DNA from: Pseudorhizobium banfieldiae | GTDB taxonomy: Bacteria > Pseudomonadota > Alphaproteobacteria > Rhizobiales > Rhizobiaceae | NCBI RefSeq assembly: GCF_000967425.1 | Contig: NZ_FO082820.1 | Coordinates: 868,001 to 932,000, forward strand | DNA: 64,000 bases | Direction of reading: 5' to 3' | Shown: piece after piece, positions 28,312 through 51,458 of the stretch | Position numbering within the stretch: the first letter of the stretch is position 1 | Layout of the letters: the number at the start of each line of letters is the position of its first letter | Notes under the pieces: generated by a model | What the model was told of the DNA's origin: nothing | What the model saw: only the letters and a program-made list of their open reading frames with translations | The model's database searches: none | Program-made: the position numbers and the translations under genes

Positions 28312-28926
28312 GTGGATCATGCCGATCAACCCGAAGCCTTCGATCCGCTGGCGGTGGACCTTGCGCTGTTTGGCTGCTGGGAGGCCGCACCCGCCTATCG
28401 CGACGCGCTGCCGGAAGGCGATGTGCTGGCCGGGGATGTGCGGGCACTGGTGCTTGAAACGAAGTCCGCGGAGGGGGTGCTGGTTTCCGCGGCCGAAGAG
28501 CTGCGGCGGCTTCTGAACGAGATGACCGTGGAGATGCGCGGCCAGTTCGACGCCTTCCGCAAGATGCGGATCGCGGCCGAGGGCCTGCTTGCCGGTGGCG
28601 ACGAGACGGCGGGAAAGCTTGCCCGCGCCGACATCAAGGCCGCGACCGACGCCATGTCGCTGATCGTCCGGACCTTGGAAAAGGTCGACAGCCTGCAGCG
28701 CCAGCTTGCCCGTGACCGCGAGGACGAGGCTGAGCGCGCGGCGGAGGCAAGCGGATATGGGGAGGCGAAGGAACGGCTCCTGAAACTGATCGAGGTGAAG
28801 GCGCGTGAACAAGCGGCCCTACTATACCGGGACTGGCAGCGTGACCGTCCTCCGGATGACCTCGACGCCCTTGTTGCCAGAGCCGAACGTCATTCAGGCG
28901 AGCCGGACGAGGCGCCGCCAGGATGA
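28312..28926 (+). CDS. GTA gp1-position protein, putative small terminase subunit
   Basis: 204 residues from a GTG start. It is predominantly helical, with a long heptad-like middle (AAEELRRLLNEMTVEMRGQ, then AIKAATDAMSLIVRTLEKVDS-type) and an acidic/Pro tail. Position directly before the large terminase, size and helical content fit the small terminase subunit that recognises DNA for packaging in GTAs; there is no sequence motif that proves it. Its 3' end overlaps the open frame of the large terminase. Confidence 0.6.
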   Translation: MDHADQPEAFDPLAVDLALFGCWEAAPAYRDALPEGDVLAGDVRALVLETKSAEGVLVSAAEELRRLLNEMTVEMRGQFDAFRKMRIAAEGLLAGGDETAGKLARADIKAATDAMSLIVRTLEKVDSLQRQLARDREDEAERAAEASGYGEAKERLLKLIEVKAREQAALLYRDWQRDRPPDDLDALVARAERHSGEPDEAPPG

Positions 28927-30385
28927 CAGGCTGGCGAAACTTGCAGAGCGGCGGCGGCAAAAACTGGCGGAACGCCATGAACGCCGAATGGCGGAGGTCG
29001 ATCGCGTGCATGAGAGGGACTGCGCCAGCACGACACGCGTTCTCGACCGAGCAGGAAGCCACCTGACGCCAGTCAATGAAACAGTCTCCCGCGCCGCCGA
29101 CGCGGCGCTGCTGGATCCCTGTAACAGGCACAGGGATGACGGAGACCTGGAAGTTCACATCGGTCGGTTCGAGCGTGACTGGGGTGTCACGGGCCGCGAC
29201 GAACAGAAGCCGCCCGATGGCGACTGGCGGACATGGCTGGTCATGGGCGGGCGCGGCTCGGGCAAGACGAGAGCCGGGGCGGAATGGGTGCAGGCGCTGG
29301 TCGCGGCAGAGGGTGAGCGATCGGAGCTTCGGATTGCGCTGGTGGCGGAAACGCTGGGCGAGGCGCGCGAGGTAATGGTGGACGGGGTTTCCGGCATCTG
29401 CCGGATCGCTCGCGGGAGCAAACGACCGGAGTTCGAGATCTCGCGGCGGCGGATTGTCTGGCCGAACGGCGCGGTGGCGCAGATCTTCTCATCGGAGGAT
29501 CCGGAGAGCCTGCGGGGGCCGCAGTTTCATTACGCCTGGTGCGACGAGCTGGCGAAGTGGAAGCATGCGGAGGAGACCTTCGACATGCTGCAGTTCGGCC
29601 TGAGGCTCGGCCGCGACCCGCGGCAACTGGTGACGACGACGCCGCGGCCGGTGCCGCTCCTGAAACGGCTGATGGCGGACGCCGGCACGCGGCTGGTGCG
29701 GATCGCGACCAGGGACAATGCCGAGAACCTGGCGCCCGGCTTCCTCGTCGAGCTGCAGAAGCGCTACGGCGGCACAAGGCTCGGGCGGCAGGAGATCGAC
29801 GGCGAACTGATCGAGGATCGCAAGGACGCGCTGTGGAAGCGCGCCGAGATCGAGGCCTGCACGGTGAGGGTGGCGGAGGCGCTGCGGCGGATCGTCGTGG
29901 CGGTCGATCCGCCTTCCGGTTCCGGCGAGCATTCCTGCTGCGGCATTGTCGTGGCGGGTCTCGACGCGGGCGGCCGGGCGGTGGTGCTGGCGGATTGTTC
30001 CGTGGAGGGCATGACGCCGGCCGGCTGGGCGAAGGCCGTGGCCAATACCTACCGGCGGTTTGCCGCCGACCGGATCGTTGCCGAGGTGAACCAGGGCGGC
30101 GAGATGGTGGCGGCGATGCTGAGAAGCGTCGACGTGTCGCTACCGCTGACGCTGGTTCGGGCAACGCGCGGCAAATACCTGCGCGCCGAGCCGGTCGCGG
30201 CCCTCTACGAGCAGCGGCGGGTGGTGCATGCGGGGCGGTTCGTGGAACTGGAAGACCAGATGTGTGATTTCGGGCCGGAGGGCTTGTCCTCGGGCCGCTC
30301 GCCCGACCGGCTGGACGCGCTGGTCTGGGCGCTCACGGCTCTCCTGATCGAGGGGCAGGGAGAGCCGCGGGTGCGGGGAATCTAG
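28805..30385 (+). CDS. GTA/phage large terminase subunit
   Basis: A motor ATPase-nuclease that packages DNA into heads. Walker A is GGRGSGKTRAG (about residues 152-162), Walker B and the adenine region follow (FHYAWCDELAKW), and the nuclease domain shows VAVDPPSGSG and SPDRLDALVWAL. The frame is open from a GTG at 28805, but the first ~130 residues do not look like other GTA terminases: they overlap the previous gene and include LDPCNRHRDDG, which is the translation of a short inverted-repeat element at 29115-29137. The true start is uncertain. The core from about residue 140 onward is intact. Confidence 0.88.
   Translation: MNKRPYYTGTGSVTVLRMTSTPLLPEPNVIQASRTRRRQDDRLAKLAERRRQKLAERHERRMAEVDRVHERDCASTTRVLDRAGSHLTPVNETVSRAADAALLDPCNRHRDDGDLEVHIGRFERDWGVTGRDEQKPPDGDWRTWLVMGGRGSGKTRAGAEWVQALVAAEGERSELRIALVAETLGEAREVMVDGVSGICRIARGSKRPEFEISRRRIVWPNGAVAQIFSSEDPESLRGPQFHYAWCDELAKWKHAEETFDMLQFGLRLGRDPRQLVTTTPRPVPLLKRLMADAGTRLVRIATRDNAENLAPGFLVELQKRYGGTRLGRQEIDGELIEDRKDALWKRAEIEACTVRVAEALRRIVVAVDPPSGSGEHSCCGIVVAGLDAGGRAVVLADCSVEGMTPAGWAKAVANTYRRFAADRIVAEVNQGGEMVAAMLRSVDVSLPLTLVRATRGKYLRAEPVAALYEQRRVVHAGRFVELEDQMCDFGPEGLSSGRSPDRLDALVWALTALLIEGQGEPRVRGI
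29115..29137. repeat. Short palindromic repeat inside the terminase N-terminus
   Basis: ATCCCTGT-AACAGGC-ACAGGGAT, an 8-bp inverted repeat flanked by GG and GACGG. Sequences of the form GGATCCCTGT...ACAGGGATGACGG resemble dispersed rhizobial intergenic repeats (from memory, not searched). Here it is translated in frame within the large terminase reading frame. Confidence 0.5.
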
Positions 30386-31348: not shown

Positions 31349-31636
31349 ATGGCGCCGGCAAGATTGATCCTCGACCGCAAGCTGCTTCTCGATGACGGCC
31401 GGATCATCCAGATCCGGATCTGGCGACTTCCCGAGGCGGATGCCGAGCGGCCTCACGGTCTGAAGTACTCGCTTTTCTTCGGCCGGGCCGGGGAACGGAT
31501 CATCGGCTACGACAACGAGAAGGGCAAAGGCGACCACCGGCACCACCGCAGCCGGGAGGAACCCTACCGGTTCTCGAGCCTTGAGCAGTTGATCCGCGAC
31601 TTCGAGAACGATGTCGAACGGGAGATGATGGGATGA
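31349..31636 (+). CDS. tumE: TumE-type toxin (DUF6516)
   Basis: A 95-residue protein with the DUF6516 pattern: LILDRKLLLDDGRIIQIRIW, KYSLFFGRAGERIIGYDNEKGKGDHRH, and YRFSSLEQLIRDFENDV. The charged GYDNEKGKGDHRH block is the family hallmark and presumably the active site. It overlaps the next gene by ATGA, the toxin-first, coupled arrangement of TumE/TumA-type toxin-antitoxin pairs. Inserted between endolysin and portal genes of the GTA. The 33 bp upstream are AT-rich with a GCATATGC palindrome that could be the autoregulatory site. Confidence 0.82.
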   Translation: MAPARLILDRKLLLDDGRIIQIRIWRLPEADAERPHGLKYSLFFGRAGERIIGYDNEKGKGDHRHHRSREEPYRFSSLEQLIRDFENDVEREMMG

Positions 31637-31995
31637 ATGAAGTTCGGCTGCATGTGACGGGCATCGGAAACTTTTTCGACGAAGCGGCGAAGGCGGCTCG
31701 CGAGATCGACCGTGGCGATCTCGGAGAACAGCCGGCGGAAGTTGCGTTCCAGACCATGGACCTGCTGCTGAAGGTGCTGACGCCGAACCGGTGGCGGCTT
31801 CTGCGTGCGCTGAAGGTCGGGGGACCGACATCCATCCGGCAGTTGTCGCAGAAGCTTGGTCGCGATTATCGTGGGGTACACGCCGATGTCTCGGCGCTGC
31901 TTGAGTTCGGCCTGATCGTCCGCGATCGCGCAGGTCGGATCTCCGTCTGCTGGGACCGGATTATCGCCGAAATGGACTTGAACCAGACAGCCTGA
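31633..31995 (+). CDS. tumA: TumA-type HTH antitoxin
   Basis: 120 residues. The C-terminal half is a winged helix-turn-helix: LKVLTPNRWRLLRALKVGGP, SIRQLSQKLGRDYRGVHADVSALLEFGLIVRDRAGRISV. The N-terminal third (about residues 1-40) is probably the toxin-neutralising region. Coupled to tumE by a four-base overlap. The HTH proteins that accompany DUF6516 toxins have this form; it should repress its own promoter and bind the toxin. Confidence 0.8.
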   Translation: MNEVRLHVTGIGNFFDEAAKAAREIDRGDLGEQPAEVAFQTMDLLLKVLTPNRWRLLRALKVGGPTSIRQLSQKLGRDYRGVHADVSALLEFGLIVRDRAGRISVCWDRIIAEMDLNQTA

Positions 31996-32771: not shown

Positions 32772-33947
32772 ATGAGCTTTCAATTCAGGCTGCCGTGGCG
32801 AGGCCCCGGCAGGAGAGAACCTGTGGCCGGCGCACCGGTTGTCGAAGCCAAGGCGGCGACTGCCTTTGCACTGGTCGCTGGCGAGGGGATCGCCCACTGG
32901 TCCGGCCGCTCCTATGGCGGGCTGGCACGGGCGGGCTTCATGAGGAACCCGGTGGCGCATCGGGCCGTGCGGCTGGTGGCCGAGGCGGCGGCCTCGGTGC
33001 CGTGGCTTGCCTACGAGGGCGAGGCAGAGGTGAGCGCGCATCCGGCCCTGGCGCTGCTCTCGCAGCCAAACGGGCGCCAGGCCGGGCCGGACTTCTTCGA
33101 GGTTCTCTACGGCCACCTGATGCTCTCCGGCAATGCCTATGTGGAACCGCTGGTGCTGGGGGACGCTCTGCGGGAACTGCATCTGTTGCGGCCGGACCGG
33201 GTGAGCGTGGTGGAGGGCCGCGACGGCTGGATCACCGCCTATGACTACCGGGCGGGCAATGTGAGCCGTCGACTGCCGGTGGAGAGCGAGGGGCGGCTTT
33301 CGCTCCTGCACCTGAAACTCTTCCATCCGCTCGACGACCACCTTGGCTTTCCGCCGCTGGCAGCGGCCGGTGCGGCGCTCGACCTCCACAATGCGGCGGG
33401 CGAATGGAACAAGGCGCTGCTCGACAATTCCGCCCGACCCTCCGGAGCGCTGGTCTACCAGCCGAAGGAGGGCGGCAATCTCTCCGCCGACCAGTACGAG
33501 CGGCTGAAGGCCGAGCTGGAAAGCGGCTATGCCGGCGCCGTCAATGCAGGGCGGCCGCTGCTGCTCGAAGGCGGGCTGGACTGGAAATCGATGGGATTGT
33601 CGCCAAAGGACATGGACTTCATTGAGGCGAAGAACGCCGCCGCCCGCGACATTGCGCTGTCGCTCGGCGTGCCGCCGATGCTGATGGGCATTCCGGGTGA
33701 CAATACCTATGCGAACTACCAGGAAGCGAACCGTGCCTTCTACCGGCTGACGGTGGTGCCGCTCCTGACGCGGACGGCGGCGAGCTTTTCCGCCTGGTTG
33801 TCGGAAGCCTATGGCGAGGCGCTGCGGCTGGAGCCCGACCTCGACTGCATCGCCGGGCTTTCGGCCGAACGCGATGCGCTCTGGGCAAGGGTGGGGGCGG
33901 CGGAGTTCTTGACGGAGGAGGAGAAACGGCAGGCGGTGGGGTATTGA
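32772..33947 (+). CDS. Phage/GTA portal protein (HK97 family)
   Basis: A 391-residue HK97-type portal, the dodecameric ring through which DNA enters the head. Seen: MRNPVAHRAVRLVAEAAASV, LMLSGNAYVEPL, LRPDRVSVVEGRDGWITAY, the clip/stem region, and LSLGVPPMLMGIPGDNTYANYQEANRAFYRLTVVPLL, which is highly typical. Length is usual. GTA gp3 equivalent. The next virion gene (DUF6107) starts 1.8 kb downstream because of the inserted hicA-hicB-secB-like block. Confidence 0.93.
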   Translation: MSFQFRLPWRGPGRREPVAGAPVVEAKAATAFALVAGEGIAHWSGRSYGGLARAGFMRNPVAHRAVRLVAEAAASVPWLAYEGEAEVSAHPALALLSQPNGRQAGPDFFEVLYGHLMLSGNAYVEPLVLGDALRELHLLRPDRVSVVEGRDGWITAYDYRAGNVSRRLPVESEGRLSLLHLKLFHPLDDHLGFPPLAAAGAALDLHNAAGEWNKALLDNSARPSGALVYQPKEGGNLSADQYERLKAELESGYAGAVNAGRPLLLEGGLDWKSMGLSPKDMDFIEAKNAAARDIALSLGVPPMLMGIPGDNTYANYQEANRAFYRLTVVPLLTRTAASFSAWLSEAYGEALRLEPDLDCIAGLSAERDALWARVGAAEFLTEEEKRQAVGY

Positions 33948-34182
33948 GGGCGGGTTGCCGGAACCGGGGGCGTCGCCTCGGGCTCTTCATGCCCGGCAGT
34001 CGAAGACCACAATTTTTACTTGCGTCAGCGTAGCGGGTTCTGCTTTGCTCGTATGGATGAGGCCGCCTCACTTTGAGCTTTAACTTGCCTGAAACTTTTG
34101 CTTCCGATGATCGTTGGATGCGTGCGACTATTTTTCAGTTGCATGCGGCCGCGTGTCGTGGAATAGGCATGAGAAAGTCTTC

Positions 34183-34434
34183 ATGTCGAAGCTAGACAGG
34201 CTGATCCAAGAGTTCAGGCAATGCAGAGGGCCGTTCCCCTATAAGGAGCTTGTTCGTCTGCTAGTCGGGCTCGGCTATACCGAGAGAGCCACCGGTGGAG
34301 GATCCAGAAGACGTTTCATGAACAGTGTTACTGGTCATATCATTCGTCTTCATGAGCCTCACCCGGGTACTGAGGTCAAGTTCTACGTCGTAAAAGACGT
34401 GCGCAACTCGCTGATCGAGCAGGGGTTAATATGA
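34183..34434 (+). CDS. hicA: HicA-type toxin
   Basis: An 83-residue YcfA/HicA-like double-stranded-RNA-binding-fold mRNA interferase. The pattern LLVGLGYTERATGGGSRRRFMN, then HIIRLHEPHPG-EVKFYVVKDVRNSLIEQGLI matches the HicA subgroup with GSRxRF in place of the GSHxxF active-site His; catalysis may differ or use the later His residues. ATG at 34183 is preferred (MSKLDRLIQEF); the frame is open from 34114. Codon use is AT-richer than in flanking virion genes. It overlaps hicB by four bases. Confidence 0.8.
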   Translation: MSKLDRLIQEFRQCRGPFPYKELVRLLVGLGYTERATGGGSRRRFMNSVTGHIIRLHEPHPGTEVKFYVVKDVRNSLIEQGLI

Positions 34435-34979
34435 GAACAATTAGCTACAAGGGCTACCAAGCATCAGTTGAATACGAAGACGGTTCGCTGTTCGTAAAGG
34501 TTCTCCATATTGATGACGTGCTCATCGGGGAGTGCGACGCGGCATCAGAAGCACCGAGGGTACTTAAGGACCTTGTAGAAGGGTATCTCCAGGATTGTGC
34601 CGAACTTGGGAGGCAGCCGACAAAACCCTTTAAAGGCTCGTTCAATGTCCGAATGACACCCGAGATGCATCGAATGATCGCCATGGATGCAGCTAGTCGC
34701 GGGATGTCACTCAACGCGTGGATATCTGAAGCCGCAACGGAAAAACTGGAATGCGAGCGCTGGGGTACGCGAATCGACGGCGTTGTATTCCAGAGCCAAG
34801 AAAAGCTTCAGCGATGGGTAAGCTCCCAGGTTGTGCGACTCTCGAATTACCACTGGCAGGCGTCGCTTCATTTATCGAGCGGGAAGAGGAGTGCGCTGGA
34901 CGAGAAGACAGAGCACGATCGACCTGCACTCAGCATGATGCGAGCCTTCAAAGCGCAACGGACACATTATCATGGCTGA
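34431..34979 (+). CDS. hicB: HicB-type antitoxin with RHH domain and C-terminal extension
   Basis: 182 residues. The N-terminal HicB fold (GYQASVEYEDGSLFVKVLHIDD, about residues 7-28, then a helix to 60) is followed by a ribbon-helix-helix DNA-binding motif FNVRMTPEMHRMIAMDAASRGMSLNAWISEAA (about 71-102). About 75 residues remain beyond the RHH, much more than in ordinary HicB (total usually 110-150). In SecB-linked toxin-antitoxin systems such an extension is the chaperone-addiction segment; here that is inference from the SecB-like gene that overlaps its 3' end by eight bases. Confidence 0.8.
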   Translation: MRTISYKGYQASVEYEDGSLFVKVLHIDDVLIGECDAASEAPRVLKDLVEGYLQDCAELGRQPTKPFKGSFNVRMTPEMHRMIAMDAASRGMSLNAWISEAATEKLECERWGTRIDGVVFQSQEKLQRWVSSQVVRLSNYHWQASLHLSSGKRSALDEKTEHDRPALSMMRAFKAQRTHYHG

Positions 34980-35433
34980 GGACACGCAGCCCTCTCAAAG
35001 ATCTCAAGTTATTGCGCTCTCGGTCATTGATGTCGACATCCTTTTCTCCGTCGGGGCAATGGCCGACGAAAGCGAGTTCTCCTTCGATGTTGAGATCACT
35101 CGCCCGGAGCCAGTTGAAGAGGGGATCTTCGCGTTCCAAGCCAACCTTCAAGTTATAAAGAGAAAGGAAGGCGAGACGTCTGAAGCTGCTGGCTTCAAAG
35201 CCAAATATTGGTGTGGCTTCCAACTGGAGGCGGAAGACGACGCTACGGAGATCGCTTCGCAGTTTGCATCGACGACAATTTGGGCAGCATTCTCAAATCT
35301 TTTCGCAGTAGTGAAAAATCAGATGGGCGTCTACTTCCCACAACTGCCGCCTGCTCCAGGTAAGATCAAGGCAATTGATCAACCGACAGACTATTCTGGC
35401 AAGCTTGATGACGGCGGATTGCTGGACGATTGA
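34972..35433 (+). CDS. SecB-like chaperone of a toxin-antitoxin-chaperone module
   Basis: A 153-residue protein, close to SecB length (about 150-160). After a short N-terminus come beta-strand-like segments (FSFDVEITRPEPV, GIFAFQANLQVIKRK) and a helix with IWAAFSNLFAVVKNQMGVYFPQLPPAPGKI, which corresponds to SecB's LFPYAR...FPQLNLAPVNF region. It is not the housekeeping secB, which is very different in sequence. Position immediately after hicB (overlapping start) supports a HicA-HicB-SecB TAC module in which the chaperone stabilises the antitoxin. Assignment is by pattern only. Confidence 0.6.
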   Translation: MAEDTQPSQRSQVIALSVIDVDILFSVGAMADESEFSFDVEITRPEPVEEGIFAFQANLQVIKRKEGETSEAAGFKAKYWCGFQLEAEDDATEIASQFASTTIWAAFSNLFAVVKNQMGVYFPQLPPAPGKIKAIDQPTDYSGKLDDGGLLDD

Positions 35434-35717
35434 TGCGCGTTTTAGGGCGTGCGACGGCCGAGGCATCGAACTGATCACACGCTTACGGTCAAAAGAGCGA
35501 GGCGGTGAGAGCACGGTAAATCCTGAAAAATCGGAACGCATCCTCGTTCATCGCCTTCTGAATGAACGGGCTTATCCATCACGTGAAGAACCGGAATCGC
35601 TGCACGAACATCCCGGGCCAACCGATTCAAATGAATAGGCAATCGGATGCCGGAGCGGCGGGGCGGTGATCGCCGGCCGCTGGTCCATGCGTTCATCCTA
35701 ATCAAGGAAGATTAACA
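35434..35717. other. Interval between the SecB-like gene and DUF6107
   Basis: 284 bp with no credible gene; an 87-codon frame at 35375-35638 has no ribosome site and random composition. A GC-rich inverted repeat (GCGGC...GCCGC) around 35655-35682 may end the cargo operon. The virion gene following has AAGGAAG before its ATG. Confidence 0.45.
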
Positions 35718-36035
35718 ATGGCTGACCTTGGCAACGAGGCTGGCGTCCTGGCGGCGAAGGCGGCCGGGGCGGCGGCGGGTGCGGGTGTGTCGCTCATCTA
35801 CCTGTTGCCGAAGAGCCGGCGCGAGGCGGCGAGCCGCTTCTTTACCGGGCTCTGCTGCGGGCTGATTTTCGGCAAGCCGACCGGCCTGTGGCTCTCCGAC
35901 AGGATGGGGATCGCGGACGAGCTGACCGGGCTGGAAATTTCACTTACCGGCTCGGCGGCGGCAAGCCTTCTCGCTTGGTGGGTGCTCGGCGCGCTCGTGC
36001 GTGTAGCGGAGCGATGGGGCAAGCGGGCGGGCTGA
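35718..36035 (+). CDS. DUF6107-type small membrane protein of the GTA cluster
   Basis: 105 residues with about three hydrophobic segments (AAKAAGAAAGAGVSLIYLL, FFTGLCCGLIFGKPTGLWL, AAASLLAWWVLGALVRV). It fits DUF6107, which sits between portal and prohead protease in Rhizobiales GTA clusters (the g3.5 position). Function unknown; membrane character would allow a holin-like role, but that is inference. Confidence 0.75.
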   Translation: MADLGNEAGVLAAKAAGAAAGAGVSLIYLLPKSRREAASRFFTGLCCGLIFGKPTGLWLSDRMGIADELTGLEISLTGSAAASLLAWWVLGALVRVAERWGKRAG

Positions 36036-36082: not shown

Positions 36083-36700
36083 ATGCACGCTGACCGCGGG
36101 CCCCGCACCCCCATGGGTGCACCCAAGCGCCCGATACTGCGCCCGAGTGCGCGGAAGTTCGCCAACCTGGAGCTGGCGGGTGTTTCCGGCGACGGGACGT
36201 TTTCCGGCTATGCCTCGGTGTTCGGCGAGGTCGATCTCGGCAAGGACAGGATCGAGCGCGGCGCCTTTGCCAATTCGCTGGTGGAACGCGGCGCGCGCGG
36301 CGTGCGCATGCTCTACCAGCATGATCCGGCAGAACCGATCGGCGCCTGGACGGTGATCCGCGAGGATGCGCGCGGGCTGTATGTCGAGGGGCGGCTTTCG
36401 CCGGGCGTCGGTCGCGCGGCGGAGGTGTTCTCGCTGATGAAGTCCGGGGCGCTCGACGGGCTGTCGATCGGCTTCCGGACGGTGAAGGCGCGCTCCGACC
36501 CGAAGAGCGGGGTGCGGCGCATCCTGGAGGCGGACCTCTGGGAAATCTCGGTGGTGACCTTCCCGATGCTGCCCTCGGCGCGCGTCTCCGACGTCAAGCA
36601 TGCACGGTTCTTCCGCGACCGGGAAGCCGAACTCGTCCGCCAGATGCGGCGTGCGGCGAAGATGATGTTGAAACCCAGCTTCAAAGGAAAAGCGACATGA
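36083..36700 (+). CDS. HK97-family prohead protease
   Basis: 205 residues. The herpesvirus-assemblin-like protease motifs are RGVRMLYQHDPAEPIGAW (catalytic His) and GALDGLSIGFRTV (catalytic Ser), with the family's GYASVFGEVDLGKDRI start. It cleaves the capsid scaffold/delta domain during head maturation. AGGAGA lies five to six bases upstream of 36083, which sets the start although the frame is open further upstream. It overlaps the capsid gene by ATGA. Confidence 0.92.
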   Translation: MHADRGPRTPMGAPKRPILRPSARKFANLELAGVSGDGTFSGYASVFGEVDLGKDRIERGAFANSLVERGARGVRMLYQHDPAEPIGAWTVIREDARGLYVEGRLSPGVGRAAEVFSLMKSGALDGLSIGFRTVKARSDPKSGVRRILEADLWEISVVTFPMLPSARVSDVKHARFFRDREAELVRQMRRAAKMMLKPSFKGKAT

Positions 36701-37968
36701 CGGACATGACAAAGACGGCGCCTGAGGTGAAGGCCCCCGAAATCAAGGGAGTGCCGGAAACGGTGACGGCGGCCTTCGACGAGTTCATGGAGGCCTTCGA
36801 GGCCTTCAAGGACGTCAACGACCGGCGGCTGGGCGAGATCGAGCAGAAGCTGTCGGCCGACGTCGTGACGCGCGACAAGATGGATCGCATCAACCGGGCG
36901 ATGGACGAACAGAAGAAGGTGCTCGACCAGATGCTGCTGAAGAAGGCGCGGCCGGCGCTCGGTTCTTCCCAGGGCCGTGAGCTTTCGCCGGAGGCCGAGG
37001 AGCACAAGGCCGCCTTCGACGCCTATGTACGCCGCGGCGACGAGGCGGGGCTGCGCGAGCTGGAGGCAAAGGCATTTTCCGCGACGGCCGGGGCTGATGG
37101 CGGCTACCTGGTGCCGCCGGAGACGGACAACGAGATCGGGAGGCGGGTTTCGATCGTGTCGCCCATGCGGGCGCTTTCGACCGTGCGAACCGTCTCCACG
37201 TCCGTCCTGAAGAAGCCGTTCGCCACCGCCGGACTTTCGACCGGCTGGGTGGCCGAGACCGCGGCGCGGCCGCAGACCAACACGCCGCAGCTGGCGGAGC
37301 TTTCCTTCCCGACGATGGAGCTTTATGCCATGCCGGCGGCGACGCAGGCGCTGCTGGACGATGCGGCCGTCGACATCGAGGCCTGGATTGCCGGCGAGGT
37401 GGACATCGTCTTCGCCGAGCAGGAGGGGGACGCCTTCATCCGCGGCGACGGGGTGAACAAGCCGAAGGGCTTCCTCACCTATACGGCGGTGGCGGAGAGC
37501 GTCTGGACCTGGGGCAATCTCGGCTACATCGCGACAGGCGCGGCAGGCGCCTGGAAGACGACGGGCCCATCCGACACGCTGGTGGACGTCATCTATGCGC
37601 TGAAGGCCGGGCACCGCCAGAACGGCACCTTCATGATGAACCGCAAGACGCAAGCTGACGTGCGCAAGTTCAAGGATGCCGACGGCAACTACCTCTGGCG
37701 GCCGCCGGCATCGGCCGGACAGCCGGCCTCGCTGATGGGCTTCCCGATCGCCGAGGCCGAGGAAATGCCGGATGTCGGCGCCAATGCGCTGGCGGTGGCT
37801 TTTGGCGACTTCCGCTCCGGCTATCTCGTGGTGGACCGGGCCGGCGTGCGCATCCTTCGCGACCCGTATTCCGCCAAGCCCTACGTGCTCTTCTACACGA
37901 CCAAGCGCGTCGGCGGCGGGGTACAGAACTTCGAGGCAATCAAGCTGGTGAAGTTTGCGGCCAGCTGA
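36697..37968 (+). CDS. Major capsid protein (HK97 fold)
   Basis: 423 residues. Residues 1-125 form the coiled-coil delta domain (FDEFMEAFEAFKDVNDRRLGEIEQKL) removed by the protease; the mature fold starts near AFSATAGADGGYLVPPETDNEI and contains DAFIRGDGVNKPKGFLTY, FMMNRKTQADVRKFKD and FGDFRSGYLVVDRAGV. Standard GTA gp5. The stop codon TGA is the first arm of a perfect 10-bp hairpin (37966-37990), which opens the inserted repeat and may reduce read-through into the connector gene. Confidence 0.95.
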   Translation: MTDMTKTAPEVKAPEIKGVPETVTAAFDEFMEAFEAFKDVNDRRLGEIEQKLSADVVTRDKMDRINRAMDEQKKVLDQMLLKKARPALGSSQGRELSPEAEEHKAAFDAYVRRGDEAGLRELEAKAFSATAGADGGYLVPPETDNEIGRRVSIVSPMRALSTVRTVSTSVLKKPFATAGLSTGWVAETAARPQTNTPQLAELSFPTMELYAMPAATQALLDDAAVDIEAWIAGEVDIVFAEQEGDAFIRGDGVNKPKGFLTYTAVAESVWTWGNLGYIATGAAGAWKTTGPSDTLVDVIYALKAGHRQNGTFMMNRKTQADVRKFKDADGNYLWRPPASAGQPASLMGFPIAEAEEMPDVGANALAVAFGDFRSGYLVVDRAGVRILRDPYSAKPYVLFYTTKRVGGGVQNFEAIKLVKFAAS

Positions 37969-40545: not shown

Positions 40546-40818
40546 GGTCGTTTCGCCGCTCGGGCTGATCCGCTGTTTCGGGGTTAAGGCGACCGTGTTC
40601 TTTCGGCCCATTGCGGACGGGCCCGTCCCAAAGCTGCGAGCAATGACCATTACTTTGCTCGTTGTCGCTACAACTGACGTACTCTTGTCTTAGCTCGGCT
40701 CAGAAGAGCGCCAGCAGGCAGCTGTCGACGGCAGAGACACTGCCTCGGCCCGATCCTGGCCATAGTTCTTCAAGTATCAATCCGCCGCCCAAGTGCACCC
40801 GAGAAGGAGGCTGGCGCG
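40546..40818. other. Left junction of the autotransporter insertion
   Basis: 273 bp without a gene between the tail chaperone and the end of the leftward autotransporter gene. No clear terminal repeat, transposase remnant or terminator is recognisable, so the insertion mechanism is unknown. Confidence 0.45.
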
Positions 40819-43260: not shown

Positions 43261-43588
43261 GTAAGACCATCGACGAGAGTAGGATGATGATGCTCTCTGA
43301 TGACCGCCTGACGGACCTTGAGCTGCACAAATGCGCTATCTTTCAGAAATCAGGCTTATTTATGAGCTTAGGCTAAAAAAGGGCGCACACATAGATGGTG
43401 GGAAAAGCACCTGGATGACTGTCCAAACTCGGCGCCATTTCAACCTCCACTCTTGAAGCAGTTGATGTCCCCCTTCTGGCGCAATGCTGACGGTCATCGC
43501 CCGGTGGCGGCACAAAGCGGACTTGTTGACCGAGAAGGTAGGGCAGCCTGCCGCCCGCATCTCGGTCATTGAGGTCGGTAACGAAGTA
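43261..43588. other. Upstream region of the autotransporter gene
   Basis: 328 bp. The AT-rich block 43345-43385 is the likely leftward promoter region for the autotransporter. No further gene is seen; the cupin gene ends at 43589. Confidence 0.45.
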
Positions 43589-43936
43589 CTATTCCGCTTC
43601 GGACCAGTGAGGATACGTCACATAGGCGGTAAGCGCGCCTTCTGCGTGGGAGCGGATGACGACCGCGTTGCCCTTTGGCATGTAGATGATCTCGCCGGAA
43701 CCCGCGGTCAGGGTCTCGCCATTGGCTTCGACCGAAACCCTTCCCTCCAGGACCACCATGACGTCGTCGACGACGATATTGGTCTCCATGACCTGGTCGG
43801 GGCCATACTTTCCATACCCGACCGTGACCGGTCCCCCCTGCCGCTGATCCGCCAGGTTCGCGGCAAAGATGTCGGCGTCCTGCCCGGGCGAGCGTTCGAA
43901 TATGGCATCAGCCGGTTCAAATCTGAGGACTTTCAT
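43589..43936 (-). CDS. Cupin-domain protein (EutQ-like)
   Basis: 115 residues forming a single cupin barrel: TNIVVDDVMVVLEGRVSVEANGE, GSGEIIYMPKGNAVVIRSHAEG, and AYVTYPHW. The pattern resembles EutQ-like ethanolamine-utilisation cupins, though no eut genes are present; the metal-binding His of classical cupin motif 1 is not obvious, so enzymatic activity is uncertain. The start at 43936 overlaps the TetR stop (ATGA), so both are one transcript. Confidence 0.8.
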   Translation of the reverse strand: MKVLRFEPADAIFERSPGQDADIFAANLADQRQGGPVTVGYGKYGPDQVMETNIVVDDVMVVLEGRVSVEANGETLTAGSGEIIYMPKGNAVVIRSHAEGALTAYVTYPHWSEAE

Positions 43937-44583
43937 ATCTTTCCTTTCTGAGTTCCGGTGCAGTCGGATGGGGTAAATCGTTCGAGACCGGTGCCGCCTG
44001 CGATAACGGCGGCGAACGTGGCGGTGGCGTCGGCGGACGAGCTCCTGCCAATGACGACATCCGCCGCCAGACATTCCCCAGCAGCAACGAAGGCTCGGCA
44101 ACGCCTTTCGAGTTCGGAAGGAGCGAGAGCGACATGCGGACGGAGGACGGCGATGAACATCCGAACGCTGTTCTCAAGCAGATCGGCGAAGACCGAGGCT
44201 TTTTCCGGCGTTCCGCCGAGGGCCGCGCCGACCGCTTGAAACTCGCCGGTGACGTCGCTCGCGCAATCGATATAGGCCCGTGCCAGTTCCTGGACCGTTT
44301 CCCGAGTGCCAATCTTGCTGCCCGCCATGCGTTCGCGAAAGGCATCGATTTTCTCGATGTCGATCCAGCGATAGAGTTCAAGCAGGAGATCGATCCGCCT
44401 GCGGAAATGATCATAGGCGACAGGCTTCGAGACACCTGCTCGCTCGGCGAGGCGCGCAAGGGTGAGCTCGTCTGTTCCCTCTTCGCCGACCATGCCTCGT
44501 GCGAGCTGGAGGAGTTGTCGATGCCGGTCCTCGTAGGAAAGACGCTCGGCTCGGGTCGATGTGTCGGGTCTCTTCGCAGCCAT
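43933..44583 (-). CDS. TetR-family transcriptional regulator
   Basis: About 216 residues from M at 44583 (12 more if 44619 is used). The N-terminal helix-turn-helix is GTDELTLARLAERAGVSKPVAYDHFRRRIDLLLELY, a standard TetR DNA-binding domain; the rest is a helical ligand domain. It is co-transcribed with the cupin gene and likely represses that operon; the inducer is unknown. Part of the insertion that separates tail chaperone and tape measure genes. Confidence 0.87.
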   Translation of the reverse strand: MAAKRPDTSTRAERLSYEDRHRQLLQLARGMVGEEGTDELTLARLAERAGVSKPVAYDHFRRRIDLLLELYRWIDIEKIDAFRERMAGSKIGTRETVQELARAYIDCASDVTGEFQAVGAALGGTPEKASVFADLLENSVRMFIAVLRPHVALAPSELERRCRAFVAAGECLAADVVIGRSSSADATATFAAVIAGGTGLERFTPSDCTGTQKGKI

Positions 44584-44806
44584 ACTGAAGAAACCTACTA
44601 AACGTAACTTCGTTCCCATCAGTGTTGCGATCAGCGTTTCCTGTCCGGGTAGTTGGAGACTGGATTGTCCAACTCGCGGACGCCCAGGACGGCTTCCCCA
44701 TCATCCAGCGGGTAGCGACCTTCTTCCGGTTCGCGCCACCGGTGTTCGAAACGACGAAAAACGTCCCTGCAGCCGGATCACGCCTGCGTCCACGAAAGGT
44801 AATCCC

Positions 44807-45393: not shown

Positions 45394-46032
45394 ATGACGG
45401 GATTTCACGAGGTGCAGTTTCCGCTGCGGCTGGCGCTCGGTACGAGCGGCGGCCCGGTGCGGCGGACCGATATCGTCAACCTGTCCAACGGGCGGGAGAA
45501 CCGCAATGCCCGCTGGCGGGATTCGCGTCGCAGCTATGATGCGGGGTCGGGCATCAAGTCTGTTGCCGATCTCTATGCGGTGCTCGAATTCTTCGAGGCG
45601 CGCCGCGGACGGCTGCACGGCTTTCGCTTCCGCGACCCGCTGGACTGGAAATCCTGCGCGCCGGGTGCGGTGGTCTCCGCCGGCGACCAGCAGATCGGCA
45701 CCGGCGACGGGACAACGGCGAGTTTTCCGCTGGTGAAGACCTACGGCGACGGGGGCACAGGCTGGGTGCGGCGGATCGCCAAGCCGGTGGCGGGGACGGT
45801 GCAGGTCTCGGTCGATGGCGTCGCGGTGGCGCCGGCGAACTATTCGGTGGATGCCGTGGCGGGCATGGTTACCTTCGTGCCAGGACAGATACCGGCGACG
45901 GGTTCGGTGGTGCGGGCGGGGTTCGAGTTCGACGTGCCGGTCCGCTTCGACACCGACCGGATCGAGGTCGATCTCAGTCATTTCGATGCCGGGCGCATTC
46001 CGACCATTCCGCTGACGGAGATCCTGCCATGA
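45394..46032 (+). CDS. DUF2460 distal tail protein (GTA gp12)
   Basis: 212 residues: TGFHEVQFPLRLALGTSGGP, VNLSNGRENRNARWRDSRRSYDAG, FFEARRGRLHGFRFRDPLDWKSC, and a C-terminal PVRFDTDRIEVDLSHFDAGRIPTIPLTEI. Textbook DUF2460/TIGR02217 phage tail protein, the distal tail hub component. It overlaps the next gene by ATGA. Confidence 0.94.
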   Translation: MTGFHEVQFPLRLALGTSGGPVRRTDIVNLSNGRENRNARWRDSRRSYDAGSGIKSVADLYAVLEFFEARRGRLHGFRFRDPLDWKSCAPGAVVSAGDQQIGTGDGTTASFPLVKTYGDGGTGWVRRIAKPVAGTVQVSVDGVAVAPANYSVDAVAGMVTFVPGQIPATGSVVRAGFEFDVPVRFDTDRIEVDLSHFDAGRIPTIPLTEILP

Positions 46033-46916
46033 GGAGCATACCCGAGGAACTTGCCGCGCATCTTGCGGGCGACGCCACTACCACCTGCCATTGCTGGCGG
46101 GTGACGCGGCGCGATGGCGCAGTGCTCGGCTTCACCGACCACGACCACGACCTTGCCTTCGACGGCACGCTCTTCCTGGCCGCCAGCGGCTTTGCGGGCA
46201 GCGAGGTGGAGACCGCGACCGGGCTGGCGGCGAGCGTCGACGAAGTGGCGGGCGGCTTTTCGAGCGAGGTGATCCGCGAGGAGGCCCTGGCTGCCGGGCT
46301 CTATGACGGAGCGCGCGTGGAGCGCTTCCTCGTCAACTGGGACGCGCCCGAGGCGCACATGCTGCTCGACATGCGCGAGGTGGGAGAGGTGACCCGGGCG
46401 GGCGAGGCCTTTTCCGCCGAGCTTCGCAGCATGGCCCATCGCCTCGCACAGCCGCAGGGGCGCGTCTACAACCGCCGCTGCGACGCCGAGTTCGGCGACG
46501 GGCGGTGCCGGGTCGATCTGTCTGCCTGGCAGGGGAGCGGCAGCGTTCTGGCGGTCACGGACGCGAGCACGATCAGCGTCGGCGGACTGGACGGGTTCGC
46601 GGAAGGATTTTTCCGCCTCGGCGTCCTGTCGCTCGCCGACGGGCGGCGGATCGACGTCGAGGGCGATCGCCGGCTGCCGGACGGCGCGCGGGAGCTTTCC
46701 TTCTGGCTGCCGCTGGAAGGGGCGCCCGGGGACGTATTGACGCCGGGGCAGGCGTTCACCATCACCGCCGGCTGCGACAAGACCTTCGCCACCTGCCGCG
46801 ACCGCTTTGCCAACCAGGTCAACTTCCGCGGCTTTCCGCACGTTCCGGGCAGCGACTTCGCCTATTCCTATGCGGCCGGCGAAGGACGTCACGATGGCGG
46901 GGCCATCTTTTCATGA
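46029..46916 (+). CDS. DUF2163/BR0599 tail hub protein (GTA gp13)
   Basis: 295 residues. The N-terminal DUF2163 part has TTTCHCWRVTRRDGAVLGFTDHDHDLAFDG, and the C-terminal BR0599 part has CDAEFGDGRCRVDL, ITAGCDKTFATCRDRFANQVNFRGFPHVPGSD. Four cysteines in the latter probably bind an iron-sulfur cluster, as described for the hub protein of RcGTA. ATGA overlaps on both sides. Confidence 0.93.
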   Translation: MRSIPEELAAHLAGDATTTCHCWRVTRRDGAVLGFTDHDHDLAFDGTLFLAASGFAGSEVETATGLAASVDEVAGGFSSEVIREEALAAGLYDGARVERFLVNWDAPEAHMLLDMREVGEVTRAGEAFSAELRSMAHRLAQPQGRVYNRRCDAEFGDGRCRVDLSAWQGSGSVLAVTDASTISVGGLDGFAEGFFRLGVLSLADGRRIDVEGDRRLPDGARELSFWLPLEGAPGDVLTPGQAFTITAGCDKTFATCRDRFANQVNFRGFPHVPGSDFAYSYAAGEGRHDGGAIFS

Positions 46917-47356
46917 CCGGCCAGGGCGCGCGGATCGTCGCCTTAGCGGAGAGCTGGATAGGCACGCCCTATCGCCACCAGGGCGCCACGAAAGGGGTCG
47001 GCTGCGATTGCATCGGCCTCGTTCGCGGCATCTGGCGGGAACTCTATGGCAACGAACCGGAGGCCGTGCCGGCCTACGCGCCGGACTGGGCCGAGCGCAG
47101 CGGCGAGGAGCGGCTGCTGGAGGCGGGGCTGCGGCTGTTCGGCCCGGCGCTGCCGATGGACGCCGCCGCACCGGGCGACCTGCTGCTCTTCCGCTGGCGG
47201 CCGGACTGCGCGGCAAAGCATGCGGGCATCCAGGCAGGGCCACGGCATTTCATCCATGCCTATGAGCAGGCGGCGGTGATCTGCTCGGCGCTGGTGCCGT
47301 CATGGCGCCGGCGGATCGTGGCGGTGCACCGGTTTCCAGTTGCGCCCGTGGATTGA
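46913..47356 (+). CDS. NlpC/P60 tail peptidase (GTA gp14)
   Basis: 147 residues of NlpC/P60, a murein endopeptidase carried by the tail. The catalytic Cys lies in KGVGCDCIGLVRGIWREL and the His in DCAAKHAGIQ; GTPYRHQGAT is the family's conserved lead-in. It starts with an ATGA overlap. Its TGA stop is inside the -35 box of the adjacent small-RNA promoter (TTGAAA at 47353). Confidence 0.92.
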   Translation: MTGQGARIVALAESWIGTPYRHQGATKGVGCDCIGLVRGIWRELYGNEPEAVPAYAPDWAERSGEERLLEAGLRLFGPALPMDAAAPGDLLLFRWRPDCAAKHAGIQAGPRHFIHAYEQAAVICSALVPSWRRRIVAVHRFPVAPVD

Positions 47357-47381
47357 AAAAACGAGCGGCTTGGCGTATATT
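47353..47381 (+). promoter_or_regulatory. Strong sigma-70-type promoter between GTA gp14 and gp15
   Basis: TTGAAA (47353-47358), 17-bp spacer, TATATT (47376-47381). This is the closest match to the housekeeping consensus I see in the window. It points into a short hairpin-rich segment that ends in an intrinsic terminator. Confidence 0.7.
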
Positions 47382-47387
47382 CCGGAG

Positions 47388-47473
47388 TGGTGAGCGAGGC
47401 GGTAACCTCGCCCACCTTGGACTTACTTTGGGAAGTATACCCGGACGGCTATCGACCAGCCCGTCCGGGTTTT
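47388..47473 (+). ncRNA. Candidate ~86-nt antisense RNA
   Basis: From the expected start at about 47388 the RNA would fold into a 5' stem-loop (GGTG-A-GCGAGG...CCTCGC-C-CACC, 47389-47416) and finish in a terminator: CCCGGACGG, 12-base loop, CCGTCCGGG, TTTT (47440-47473). No reading frame with a ribosome site lies within. It is exactly antisense to the 3' part of the 29-codon frame on the other strand, so it probably regulates that peptide gene; the arrangement is that of type I toxin-antitoxin units. The terminator should also attenuate transcription into gp15. Confidence 0.6.
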
Positions 47474-47512
47474 CCTCAAGGTAAGCGCAATGCCAATCGG
47501 GGTGAGCTTCAT
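47423..47512 (-). CDS. 29-residue basic peptide, candidate type I toxin
   Basis: Reverse-strand ATG at 47512 with GGAGG seven bases upstream. The frame encodes 29 residues and stops at TAA (47425-47423). The peptide starts MKLTPIGIALTL and ends GWSIAVRVYFPK: an amphipathic basic peptide with a hydrophobic start. The last two thirds of the frame pair with the candidate antisense RNA transcribed from 47388. The ~110-base leader back to a weak TAGATT box (47638-47633) is GC-rich with strong dyads (CCGGCGCGCCGG), as in tightly controlled toxin mRNAs. No family assigned. Confidence 0.5.
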   Translation of the reverse strand: MKLTPIGIALTLRKTRTGWSIAVRVYFPK

Positions 47513-47654
47513 AGCACTACCTCCAGGTTCGAGAGCAAGGCCCTTGCCGAGGCCGGTGGGGCCCGTCCTCACCGGCGCGCCGGCTGGCGCGGCGCTCGCT
47601 GCTTCTGCTCCCGAACATCATCACCCTATCACAATCTAGCCGCGCATCCAGCGG

Positions 47655-50600
47655 GTGCCGCAAGGGGCTTCCATGGCCACTATTCTCTTCCAGGCGGCGG
47701 GCGCGGCGCTCGGCGGTGTCTTCGGTCCTGTGGGCGCGATGCTTGGGCGCGCGGCGGGCGGGCTGGCCGGCAGCCATGTGGATCGCGCGCTGATCAATGG
47801 TGGCCGGACGATCTCTGGAGCGCGGCTGGCGACTGCACGCATTCCGGGTGCCGACGAGGGCGCGCCGATCAGCCGCGTCTACGGGTCGGCCCGGATCGGC
47901 GGCACACTGATCTGGGCGACGCGTTTCGAGGAAGAGGTGCGGCGGGAACGCTCCGGCGGCAAGGCGAGCGGTCCGCGGGTGGAGAGCTTCCGCTACTTCG
48001 CCAACCTCGCCATCGGGCTGTGCGAGGGCGAGATTGCCGGGATCAGGCGGGTGTGGGCGGACGGTCGCGAGATCGACCTGACGGGCGTGGAGATGCGCGT
48101 CTATCGGGGCGGGGAGGACCAATTGCCCGATCCGCTGATCGAGGCAAAACAGGGCATGGGCAACGCGCCTGCCTATCGCGGCCTCGCCTATGTCGTCTTC
48201 GATCGCCTGCCGCTCGATCCGTTCGGCAACCGTATTCCGCTGCTGCAGTTCGAGGTGCTGCGTCCGGTCGGCGCGCTGGAGCGGCAGATTCGTGCGGTCA
48301 CGATCATTCCCGGCGCGACCGAGCACGGCTATGCGAACGTGCAGGTGACGGAGAAGACGGGCGAGGGCAGCGCCCGGATCATGAACCGCCATACCTTGAC
48401 AGCGGCGACTGACTGGCAGGCCTCGATCGACGAGCTGACGGCGCTCTGCCCGAACCTCGAGCGGGTGGCGCTGGTCGTCAGTTGGTTCGGGACGGACTTG
48501 AGGGCCGGCCACTGCCGGATCCTGCCGGGTGTGGAGGTGCCGCACCGGGACGACGAAAGCTCGCCTTGGTCGGTCGCCGGTTTCACGCGCGCCGATGCCC
48601 ATACCGTCAGCCGGCACGGGGGCGGTCCGGCCTATGGCGGCACGCCGAGCGACGATAGCCTGCTCCAGGCCATTGCGGACCTCAAGGCGCGGGGACTGGA
48701 GGTCTATCTCTACCCGTTCCTGATGATGGACGTTCCGCAAGGCAACGGCCTTCCCGATCCGCATGGAGGCGCGGAGCAGGCGAGCTACCCCTGGCGCGGC
48801 CGCATCACCTGCCATCCCGCACCCGGCCTGCCCGGCACGACCGACCGAACGGCGGCGGCGCGAAGCCAGGTGGCGGCCTTCGCCGAAGACGCGGACGGTT
48901 ACCGGCGCATGGTGCTGCACTATGCCGGACTGGCGGCCGAAGCCGGCGGCATTGATGGCTTCCTCATAGGCTCGGAACTGCGCGGGCTGACTCAGTTGCG
49001 CGACGAGGCCGGGCGGTTCCCCTTCGTCGAGCAGTTGGTGCAACTGGCGGAGGATGTCCGGACGATGCTTGGCTCGCAGGCGAAGCTGACCTACGGCGCC
49101 GACTGGAGCGAGTATTTCGGCTATCACCCGCAGGACGGCTCCGGCGACGTCTTCTTCCACCTTGACCCGCTCTGGGCGTCGCCGGCGATCGATGCCGTGG
49201 GCATCGACAACTACATGCCGCTTGCCGACTGGCGCGACGAGGATCTCGCACGCGCCAATCCCGAGGGGTTCCGTCTCGCCGAGGACGACGAGGCAATGGG
49301 GGCGCAAATCGCGGCGGGGGAAGGCTTCGACTGGTACTATGCGAGCGATGCGGATCGAGCCGCACGCCTTCGGACGCCGATCACCGACGGGGCGGCGGGC
49401 AAGCCCTGGGTGTTCCGGCCCAAAGATCTGGCCGGCTGGTGGTCGAATTCTCATCATGATCGCCTCGGCGGCGAGGAGGTGGCGCAGCCGACCGGCTGGC
49501 AACCGGCGATGAAGCCGATCTGGTTCACCGAACTCGGCTGCCCGGCGGTGGACAAGGGGGCCAACCAGCCGAATGTCTTCGTCGATCCGAAATCGGCCGA
49601 AAGTACCGCCCCGCATTTTTCGAGTCTCGCCCGGTCCGATGCCATGCAGCGGCGCTTCCTGGAGGCACATCACCGGCATTGGCAGGGGCAAGACACCGGA
49701 CCGGTCGACCCGGACCGTGTCTTCGTCTGGACCTGGGACGCGCGCCCCTATCCTGCCTTTCCCGCCGATCTTTCGGTTTGGAGCGACGGCGGCAACTGGC
49801 GAAGTGGCCACTGGTTGAATGGCAGGCTGGGCGCGGTGACATTGGCCGATACGATCGCTTCCGTCCTGGCGGATCATGGTTTTCACGATTTCGACGTATC
49901 GGCGGTGAGCGGTGACCCCATCGGCTATGTGCAGGCGGAGGTGACCTCGGCACGTGCCCTGCTCGCGCCGCTGCTCGATGTCTTCAGGATCGACGCGATC
50001 GAGGAAGCGGGGCGGCTCAGGTTGCGGTCGCGAGGCGCTGCGAGCCTTCCGCCAGCCGTCATCGATGTGCTCGCCGATGTCGAGGATCAGCCGCTGTGGA
50101 GCGAGACCCGCGGCCATGACAGCGACTTCGCCGCCGAAATGGTGATCGGTTCCTACAATCCCGCTTTGAACTACGAGCAGGCGAGCGCCCGGTCCCGGCG
50201 GACGCGGACGGCGAGCAACCGGGTGCTCGGCTATGACCTGCCGTCCGTCCTGGCCGAGGAGGCAGCGCTTTCCGCAGCGGAGGCTGCCGTCCGCGATCAG
50301 TGGGTGTCGCGACGGACGCTGAGCTTCGCGCTGTCCCCGGCGGACGTCGGCCTCCAGCCAGGCGATCCGATCACGTTGCCGCAGGCTGGCGGGACGTTTC
50401 TCGTTTCGCGCGTGGAGGAAGGGCCGGTGCGCCGGATCGAGGCGCGCCAGCACGCAACCTCCGCGCCTGCCGCACCCGTCCAGGAGACGCCGGGGCCGGG
50501 AGGTGGGGACACCGGTTCGGACGCGTTTGCACCGATCCTCCATCTTCTCGACCTGGCGCGTTTCTCCTCCGGTCCCGGGGAGAGCTTCGCCCGGGCGGCA

Positions 50601-51458
50601 GGCCATGCGCGTCCCTGGCAACGGATCATGCTGTCCTCGTCGCCGACGACGGACGGATATGGGCTGCGTGCAGTGCTCGACCGGCCGGCGCGGATCGGAC
50701 GGCTCACGGCGCCGCTTGCGTCCGGCACCATATCGGGGCGCTTCGACCATGCGTCGAGGATTGAGCTCGACCTCTTCTTCGGCGGCCTGTCGTCTGCCTC
50801 CTTGGAAGCGGTTCTGGCGGGCGAGAACCGGCTGGCGGTGAAGGCAGCGAGCGGGACATGGGAGATCGTCAGTTTCCTTGAGGCGCAGGAAGTGGCGCCT
50901 GGACGCTGGCGGCTCGCAAGGCTGCTGCGCGGACTGGCAGGAACGGAGGACGCAATGTCCGAGGGCGCGCCGGCGGGTTCGCCGGTGGTGCTGCTGGACG
51001 AGGCGGTCGCGTCGCTCGGGCTTGCCGCAGAGGAACGTGGCCGCATGCTGAACTGGATTGCCGAAGGCAGCGGGGCCGGCGGTGGCCGTGTGGGGCCATT
51101 GCCCTTCCAGGGCGGGATCAGGGCGGAGACACCGCTCTCGCCCGTGCACCTGGGCGCCCGCCGACTGGCCAATGGCGACCTGCTGCTGTCTTGGATCCGT
51201 CGGGGCAGGGTGGAGGCGGACGACTGGGGTGCCGCCGATGTTCCGCTCGACGAGCCGGAGGAGCGCTACCGCGTCGACATTCTGGACGGTTCCACCGTGC
51301 GGCGTTCGGCGGACCTCGCGGCCCCGCAACTCCTCTACAGCCTCGACGAGCAGATCACCGATTTCGGCCAGCCGCTGCCGGCGGTGACCATACGGGTTCG
51401 CCAACTGGGCCGGGCGGTGCCGCTCGGGATTGCGGCGACCGCCACCATTCAAACCTAG
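47655..51458 (+). CDS. GTA gp15-type giant tail protein with TIM-barrel domain
   Basis: 1267 residues, the baseplate 'megatron' of GTAs. N-terminal segment MATILFQAAGAALGGVFGPVGA resembles a membrane-active helix, followed by a phage-tail assembly region with RVYGSARIGGTLIWATRF. The GTA TIM-barrel (roughly residues 300-740) shows YAGLAAEAGGIDGFLIGSELRGL, YGADWSEYFGY, FHLDPLWASPAIDAVGIDNYMPL and WFTELGCPAVDKG, a glycoside-hydrolase-like fold thought to act on the cell surface. A tail-3 domain (DFAAEMVIGSYNPALNYEQ onward) and C-terminal beta domains follow. Intact and full length. Confidence 0.93.
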   Translation: MPQGASMATILFQAAGAALGGVFGPVGAMLGRAAGGLAGSHVDRALINGGRTISGARLATARIPGADEGAPISRVYGSARIGGTLIWATRFEEEVRRERSGGKASGPRVESFRYFANLAIGLCEGEIAGIRRVWADGREIDLTGVEMRVYRGGEDQLPDPLIEAKQGMGNAPAYRGLAYVVFDRLPLDPFGNRIPLLQFEVLRPVGALERQIRAVTIIPGATEHGYANVQVTEKTGEGSARIMNRHTLTAATDWQASIDELTALCPNLERVALVVSWFGTDLRAGHCRILPGVEVPHRDDESSPWSVAGFTRADAHTVSRHGGGPAYGGTPSDDSLLQAIADLKARGLEVYLYPFLMMDVPQGNGLPDPHGGAEQASYPWRGRITCHPAPGLPGTTDRTAAARSQVAAFAEDADGYRRMVLHYAGLAAEAGGIDGFLIGSELRGLTQLRDEAGRFPFVEQLVQLAEDVRTMLGSQAKLTYGADWSEYFGYHPQDGSGDVFFHLDPLWASPAIDAVGIDNYMPLADWRDEDLARANPEGFRLAEDDEAMGAQIAAGEGFDWYYASDADRAARLRTPITDGAAGKPWVFRPKDLAGWWSNSHHDRLGGEEVAQPTGWQPAMKPIWFTELGCPAVDKGANQPNVFVDPKSAESTAPHFSSLARSDAMQRRFLEAHHRHWQGQDTGPVDPDRVFVWTWDARPYPAFPADLSVWSDGGNWRSGHWLNGRLGAVTLADTIASVLADHGFHDFDVSAVSGDPIGYVQAEVTSARALLAPLLDVFRIDAIEEAGRLRLRSRGAASLPPAVIDVLADVEDQPLWSETRGHDSDFAAEMVIGSYNPALNYEQASARSRRTRTASNRVLGYDLPSVLAEEAALSAAEAAVRDQWVSRRTLSFALSPADVGLQPGDPITLPQAGGTFLVSRVEEGPVRRIEARQHATSAPAAPVQETPGPGGGDTGSDAFAPILHLLDLARFSSGPGESFARAAGHARPWQRIMLSSSPTTDGYGLRAVLDRPARIGRLTAPLASGTISGRFDHASRIELDLFFGGLSSASLEAVLAGENRLAVKAASGTWEIVSFLEAQEVAPGRWRLARLLRGLAGTEDAMSEGAPAGSPVVLLDEAVASLGLAAEERGRMLNWIAEGSGAGGGRVGPLPFQGGIRAETPLSPVHLGARRLANGDLLLSWIRRGRVEADDWGAADVPLDEPEERYRVDILDGSTVRRSADLAAPQLLYSLDEQITDFGQPLPAVTIRVRQLGRAVPLGIAATATIQT

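Follow-up and report, generated by a model that had tools for sequence, protein, structure and literature searches.

Few defence systems have a trigger that is understood, and toxin-antitoxin-chaperone (TAC) systems are among them. In the excerpts of PMC5105189, the antitoxin HigA1 of Mycobacterium tuberculosis (Mtb) requires a SecB chaperone on its tail to fold and stay stable, and a HicAB-SecB system from Methylomonas methanica (Mmet-HicAB-SecB) is chaperone-dependent in E. coli. Excerpts of three other papers (PMC11618068, PMC11980606, PMC12593503) describe the triggers, a T4 capsid protein for CmdTAC and a lambda tail protein for HigBAC, which strip away the chaperone. HicAB-SecB TACs are already known, but they have hardly been followed up, and the words chaperone, SecB, TAC and tripartite are absent from a 2024 review on HicAB. 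Here we analyse a 64,000-nucleotide stretch of the Pseudorhizobium banfieldiae genome (assembly GCF_000967425.1, contig NZ_FO082820.1, positions 868,001 to 932,000 of the forward strand; hereafter the window), in which three overlapping genes, hicA, hicB and a third gene (gene 3), probably form a TAC module of the HicAB class that works and came to its place as proposed below. The original prediction, made from the DNA alone, had called such a HicAB version little studied; this is right as regards follow-up, but not as regards Mmet-HicAB-SecB, whose dependence on its chaperone had already been established. What is new here is a family of predicted SecB-fold chaperones that has no Pfam model, its spread among prophages, and the exchange of the module for a ParD-ParE pair within a gene transfer agent (GTA) cluster.

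The three genes are as follows:

34183..34434, plus strand: hicA, toxin, 83 residues (PF07927, E = 3.8e-7, 30.6 bits, cut-off 27)
34431..34979, plus strand: hicB, antitoxin, 182 residues (PF05534, E = 9.1e-20, residues 52-101)
34972..35433, plus strand: gene 3, predicted SecB-fold protein of 153 residues, candidate TAC chaperone

We observed that hicA and hicB overlap by four bases (ATGA), and hicB and gene 3 by eight. The toxin gene precedes the antitoxin gene, with both the HicA and the HicB domain recognised above the Pfam cut-offs, as in HicAB systems. An operon of toxin and antitoxin genes of known families, an antitoxin with a C-terminal extension and an adjacent gene for a predicted SecB-fold chaperone make up the composition of a TAC. 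HicA retains the HEPH motif, which is present in 19 of 21 HicAs among the matches listed, this one included. It is a putative RNA-cleaving toxin that would block translation. The G+C content of the three genes is 0.51-0.53, against 0.66 in both flanks. Promoter and terminator scans returned only chance-level numbers, and a short palindrome, possibly the HicB operator, lies 28 bases upstream of hicA:

34142..34155, no strand: short palindrome (pair I3, 91% complementary)

Structure prediction gave gene 3 a confident fold, which is that of SecB; in a structural alignment its product is 7% identical to the SecB chaperone of Mtb-HigBA1-SecB. The protein belongs to no Pfam, NCBIfam or PADLOC family, showing only a sub-threshold 15-residue motif, and a Pfam scan of eight of its relatives likewise left the SecB model unmatched. 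The export SecB of the same genome, encoded elsewhere, matches PF02556 with 183 bits. When searched alone against 5.8 billion proteins, gene 3 found only itself. With a profile built from 16 members the search returned 39 proteins, and Pfam recognised no domain in any of them. A six-frame search of the family genomes, which is insensitive, gave matches at E <=0.1 in 7 of 297; three are real, namely the window's own gene and those in G086 (E = 6e-5) and G149 (E = 0.0011), and for the remaining four no HicB was seen in the flank listed. With a profile of nine rows, 2 of 397 order genomes matched, the window's own and G140; the latter match is probably due to chance, the flank listed being without HicB. 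Since the standard SecB model misses this family altogether, counts of such modules are likely too low.

The HicB protein comprises a HicB/RHH core (residues 1-105) and a long tail (about 106-182). In the AlphaFold2 model (pLDDT 81.8, pTM 0.44) the HicB core and RHH region are seen, and the tail is helical up to about residue 151, its final ~30 residues being of low confidence. The unusual length of the tail, claimed from the sequence at the outset, is thus borne out; HicBs without a third gene are mostly 107-134 residues long, against 182 here. The modelled tail fits an unfolded chaperone-binding tail, without being proof of one. We also considered the conserved C-terminal ends of these HicBs (HG, HA, NA or DA) as a degron and rejected this idea, since the overlapping gene 3 ATG dictates those residues.

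We then compared long and short HicBs. A HicB protein search returned 110 proteins, many of about 170-187 residues, and the DNA that follows HicB relatives on contigs from genomes and viruses yielded 102 loci, the genome loci being the best 80 of 357; these loci are related and partly redundant (the HicBs of L017 and L097 are identical, those of L092 and L093 nearly so). Among HicBs of at least 150 residues, 26 of 27 are followed by an open reading frame (ORF) of 120-200 residues (139-176 in fact) starting at most 60 bases from the hicB stop, versus 7 of 75 shorter HicBs (Fisher, 8e-17). A signature, W..[FY]...Q...P.[FL]P, composed after the first relatives had been inspected, occurs in 17 of the 27 long-HicB loci and in 0 of the 75 others (9e-13); within the window, it is present in one of 244 stop-to-stop ORFs of at least 120 residues, a set that includes gene 3. 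The third gene begins at one and the same offset in 13 of the 17 signature loci, its ATG lying seven bases ahead of the final base of the hicB stop. Viral contigs from IMG/VR account for nine of the 17; hosts named for the remaining loci include Mesorhizobium, Agrobacterium, Hoeflea, Phyllobacterium, Rhizobium and Roseicella.

This pairing bears on whether gene 3, though of SecB fold, could serve elsewhere, as a transcriptional or export helper for example, beside a HicAB that is an ordinary two-part toxin-antitoxin (TA) system. No sequence similarity of gene 3 to known TAC chaperones was found, as such a role would have it; however, identity among the known TAC chaperones is itself as low as 14-19% in the excerpts of PMC5105189, and the tail and the third gene go together in nearly all long HicBs, the signature being absent from every short one. 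We therefore regard another job for gene 3 as very unlikely. In eight loci (L031, L046, L064, L101, L103, L104, L105 and L107) a long-tailed HicB is accompanied by a different third gene of 141-165 residues that has no Pfam match; these are possibly further SecB-fold families.

Several observations weigh against a TAC of the HicAB class. In the toxin, the histidine of the F.H motif, kept in 15 of 21 HicAs among the matches listed, is replaced by asparagine, and PADLOC has no match for the module. PF02556, the Pfam SecB model, scored above its cut-off in neither gene 3 nor any of 49 rows. Comparison by hhalign of the gene 3 profile with 14 export SecBs was weak (probability 1.9%, E = 0.026, 113 columns), pairing the FPQLPPAP of gene 3 with the FP.L.L.P region of export SecBs, and a PDB search by phmmer and two profiles returned no SecB chain, the best hits (E = 1.6 and 0.1) being unrelated chains. 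The conserved HicB ends are forced by the overlapping ATG of gene 3 and therefore do not speak for a degron or a binding motif. Locus L100 has a long-tailed HicB (186 residues) with no third gene at its stop. Lastly, the signature is missing from 9 of the 26 third genes, all of which lie outside the modelled set; among these nine only L033 gave a Pfam SecB score, which was weak (E = 0.0012, below cut-off). As a correction to the original prediction, gene 3 lacks a Pfam SecB match and its profile-profile comparison is weak, and its SecB case rests on the predicted fold. No confident fold unrelated to SecB emerged, and all but one of the long-tailed HicBs have a third gene, so that neither condition named as refuting the original prediction held; the TAC interpretation as a whole is supported.

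The module lies within a set of genes which, judged from homology, is an RcGTA-type cluster:

28805..30385, plus strand: large terminase-like ORF of the GTA (position and tblastn homology to relatives; no NCBIfam family)
31349-31636, plus strand: TumE toxin of a second TA pair (PF20126, E = 6e-17)
31633-31995, plus strand: HVO_A0114-type winged-helix protein in the TumA position (PF25212, E = 9e-24)
32772..33947, plus strand: GTA portal (PF04860, E = 2e-83; TIGR01537, E = 7e-69)
33965..35583, plus strand: exchanged segment with hicAB-gene 3 (blastn borders versus L127 and L129)
35718..36035, plus strand: small conserved gene of 105 residues in the interval between slot and protease (tblastn matches in relatives)
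36191..36700, plus strand: prohead protease (PF04586, E = 1e-32; TIGR01543, E = 2e-35)
36697..37968, plus strand: HK97-type major capsid protein (PF05065, E = 4e-90; TIGR01554, E = 2e-121)
45394..51458, plus strand: GTA tail genes for the distal tail protein (Rcc01695 family), baseplate hub and megatron (TIGR02217, E = 6e-91; TIGR02218, E = 1e-93; NF048004 GTA_megatron, 1652 bits)

A head-tail connector and a TP901-type tail protein are also encoded, so that the cluster has the head and tail genes of RcGTA-type agents, including the GTA-specific baseplate proteins (TIGR02217, TIGR02218, NF048004). Portal matches occur in 55 of 57 genus genomes, including a few fragments or different phage, and the GTA genes and TumE/TumA have dN/dS of 0.00-0.28 versus two relatives, as is to be expected of a cluster that resides stably in the lineage and is kept by purifying selection. 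The TumE-TumA pair (31349-31995) sits between a GH19 gene and the portal; in L130-L156 the GH19-to-portal gap often holds a small conserved gene starting MIRHIVFFTA (Dabb-like, by eye). A minus-strand block (~40650-44700), with a long autotransporter-like ORF (40819-43260) and a TetR-like one (43933-44619), both named by eye, separates the tail-protein gene from the distal-tail genes and so interrupts the GTA cluster.

We examined the slot between portal and protease in 50 of the other 54 portal genomes of the genus, two decayed clusters being added later; two portal genomes had been excluded, one a contig-end fragment and one a 32% match. In the gap between the portal and the 105-residue gene, 37 of the 50 clusters carry ParD-like and ParE-like genes, on the GTA strand in all 37, one has ParD only and 12 have neither; HicA, HicB or gene 3 matched in none of the 50. 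Pfam recognised RHH_1 in one ParD (E = 5e-7) and ParE_toxin in three ParEs (E = 2e-10 to 1e-11). On either side of the slot the window is 82-95% identical in DNA to its near relatives L127 and L129. Homology by blastn ends at 33964 (L127) or 33969 (L129) and restarts at 35584 in both. Between these borders, which show neither flanking repeats nor sign of a transposase, L127 has 685 bases with ParD-ParE and the window 1619 bases with the TAC; ParD and ParE also match in the L129 slot. The sharp borders together with ParD-ParE in both relatives imply that one TA module was replaced by another: on this comparison, hicAB-gene 3 is exchanged for the resident ParD-ParE inside the GTA cluster. The AT-richness of the block and its probable acquisition had been rightly noted before, but this replacement had gone unseen.

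TA pairs are also found upstream of the portal, TumE-TumA in 4 of the 50 clusters besides the window (TumA alone in L176) and HicA-HicB without chaperone in L021, L023 and L024. HicB loci with ParD-ParE in the slot are L021, L024 and L111, L098 having ParD only. Across the family, 160 of 217 genomes have the capsid protein; of 60 regions taken from these 160, mostly one per genus, two (L180, L181) have ParD-ParE in the slot. The TA-in-slot habit is thus mainly one of this genus, shared by some of its neighbours, and is not general. As to decay, protease and capsid genes are both lost in L128, L166 and L176 and the capsid gene alone in L156 (n = 50); L166 has ParD-ParE, L156 ParD only, L128 and L176 neither, and the two further decayed clusters gave no TA match. 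The idea that TA presence guards the GTA from decay was dropped as unproven, the cases being few and related. L128, L165 and L176 have a minus-strand PAP2-like gene (by eye) in the portal-to-protease gap.

TA cassettes might simply be selfish cargo that enters the GTA operon at a gap where insertions are tolerated, swaps there and persists by addiction, with no role for GTA or phage. The sharp exchange with the resident ParD-ParE fits this, as does the acceptance of other genes by the gap elsewhere: it exceeds 500 bases in 13 of 59 measurable wider-family regions, with a PIN-domain gene in L211 (4237-4614, Pfam E = 1e-19) and a HipA-like gene, by eye, in L223 (3053-4396; oriented coordinates). 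The divergence of ParD follows that of the portal to a modest degree only (Mantel r 0.35; none of 2000 permutations reached this value), suggesting that exchange is common. However, about half of the signature loci, nine of 17, are in viral contigs, and phage defence is the role of known TACs; we hold plain selfish cargo to be rather unlikely.

By the TAC reading that we prefer, whose steps beyond this anatomy are conditional, HicB would neutralise HicA and repress the operon. Its long tail would destabilise it unless bound by the SecB-fold protein, by analogy with Mtb HigA1 and Mmet HicAB. As happens in CmdTAC and HigBAC, the chaperone would be titrated, the likeliest agents being phage structural proteins fresh from synthesis; once it is drawn off, HicB would fail and free HicA would arrest growth before phage are produced. 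The cassette would have come from the prophage pool into a GTA-cluster slot often held by a TA pair, and may also help to retain the cluster, loss of the segment releasing the toxin. By the same analogy, the trigger may be structural proteins of phage or of the GTA.

A different wiring would keep the SecB-fold protein and its link to HicB but have GTA portal, capsid or tail proteins draw off the chaperone, the toxin firing in the few particle-makers to limit or time production, and the slot holding TAs for that reason. The slot is indeed flanked by portal and protease/capsid genes, ParD-ParE always lies on the GTA strand, TA pairs recur upstream of the portal, and TAC chaperones are described, in the excerpts cited above, as sensing capsid and tail proteins. 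On the other hand, the slot is usually occupied by ParD-ParE, which lacks a chaperone that could sense anything, and the slot is TA-free in 12 of the 50 clusters and in most of the 60 wider-family regions; this wiring seems to us decidedly unlikely. The broader proposal that GTA clusters of this lineage reserve a TA place beside the capsid genes, the chaperone of this module sensing unfolded structural proteins of the GTA or of an invading phage and so coupling particle production to growth arrest, we judge unlikely. If true, it would help to explain the upkeep of agents unable to spread themselves. The persistence of GTAs is a long-standing question to which addiction to TA modules, or control of particle-making cells by them, would be relevant, and the sharper point is one of location: ParD-ParE, TumE-TumA, HicAB and HicAB with chaperone are all found inside GTA clusters.

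With RcGTA-type GTAs the cluster, known from its genes, shares portal, prohead protease, HK97 capsid, an Rcc01695-type distal tail protein, baseplate hub and megatron. It differs in holding TA modules, which the portions of the GTA literature consulted do not describe; among titles and abstract beginnings, with subscription journals outside the scope, none was found to report such modules within a GTA cluster. Compared with Mtb-HigBA1-SecB (Rv1955-Rv1957), the TA pair is HicAB instead of HigBA and the chaperones share little identity, 7% when structurally aligned. The closest likeness by composition is to the Mmet-TAC as described in excerpt, with hicA, hicB bearing a C-terminal extension and a SecB-like chaperone; the likening is by description and not by the Mmet-SecB sequence, and the chaperone of the window is outside Pfam SecB and its module inside a GTA cluster. 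As for CmdTAC and HigBAC, whose toxins belong to other families, the excerpts describe a SecB-like chaperone that guards the antitoxin, as gene 3 would here, and a trigger that is a phage structural protein.
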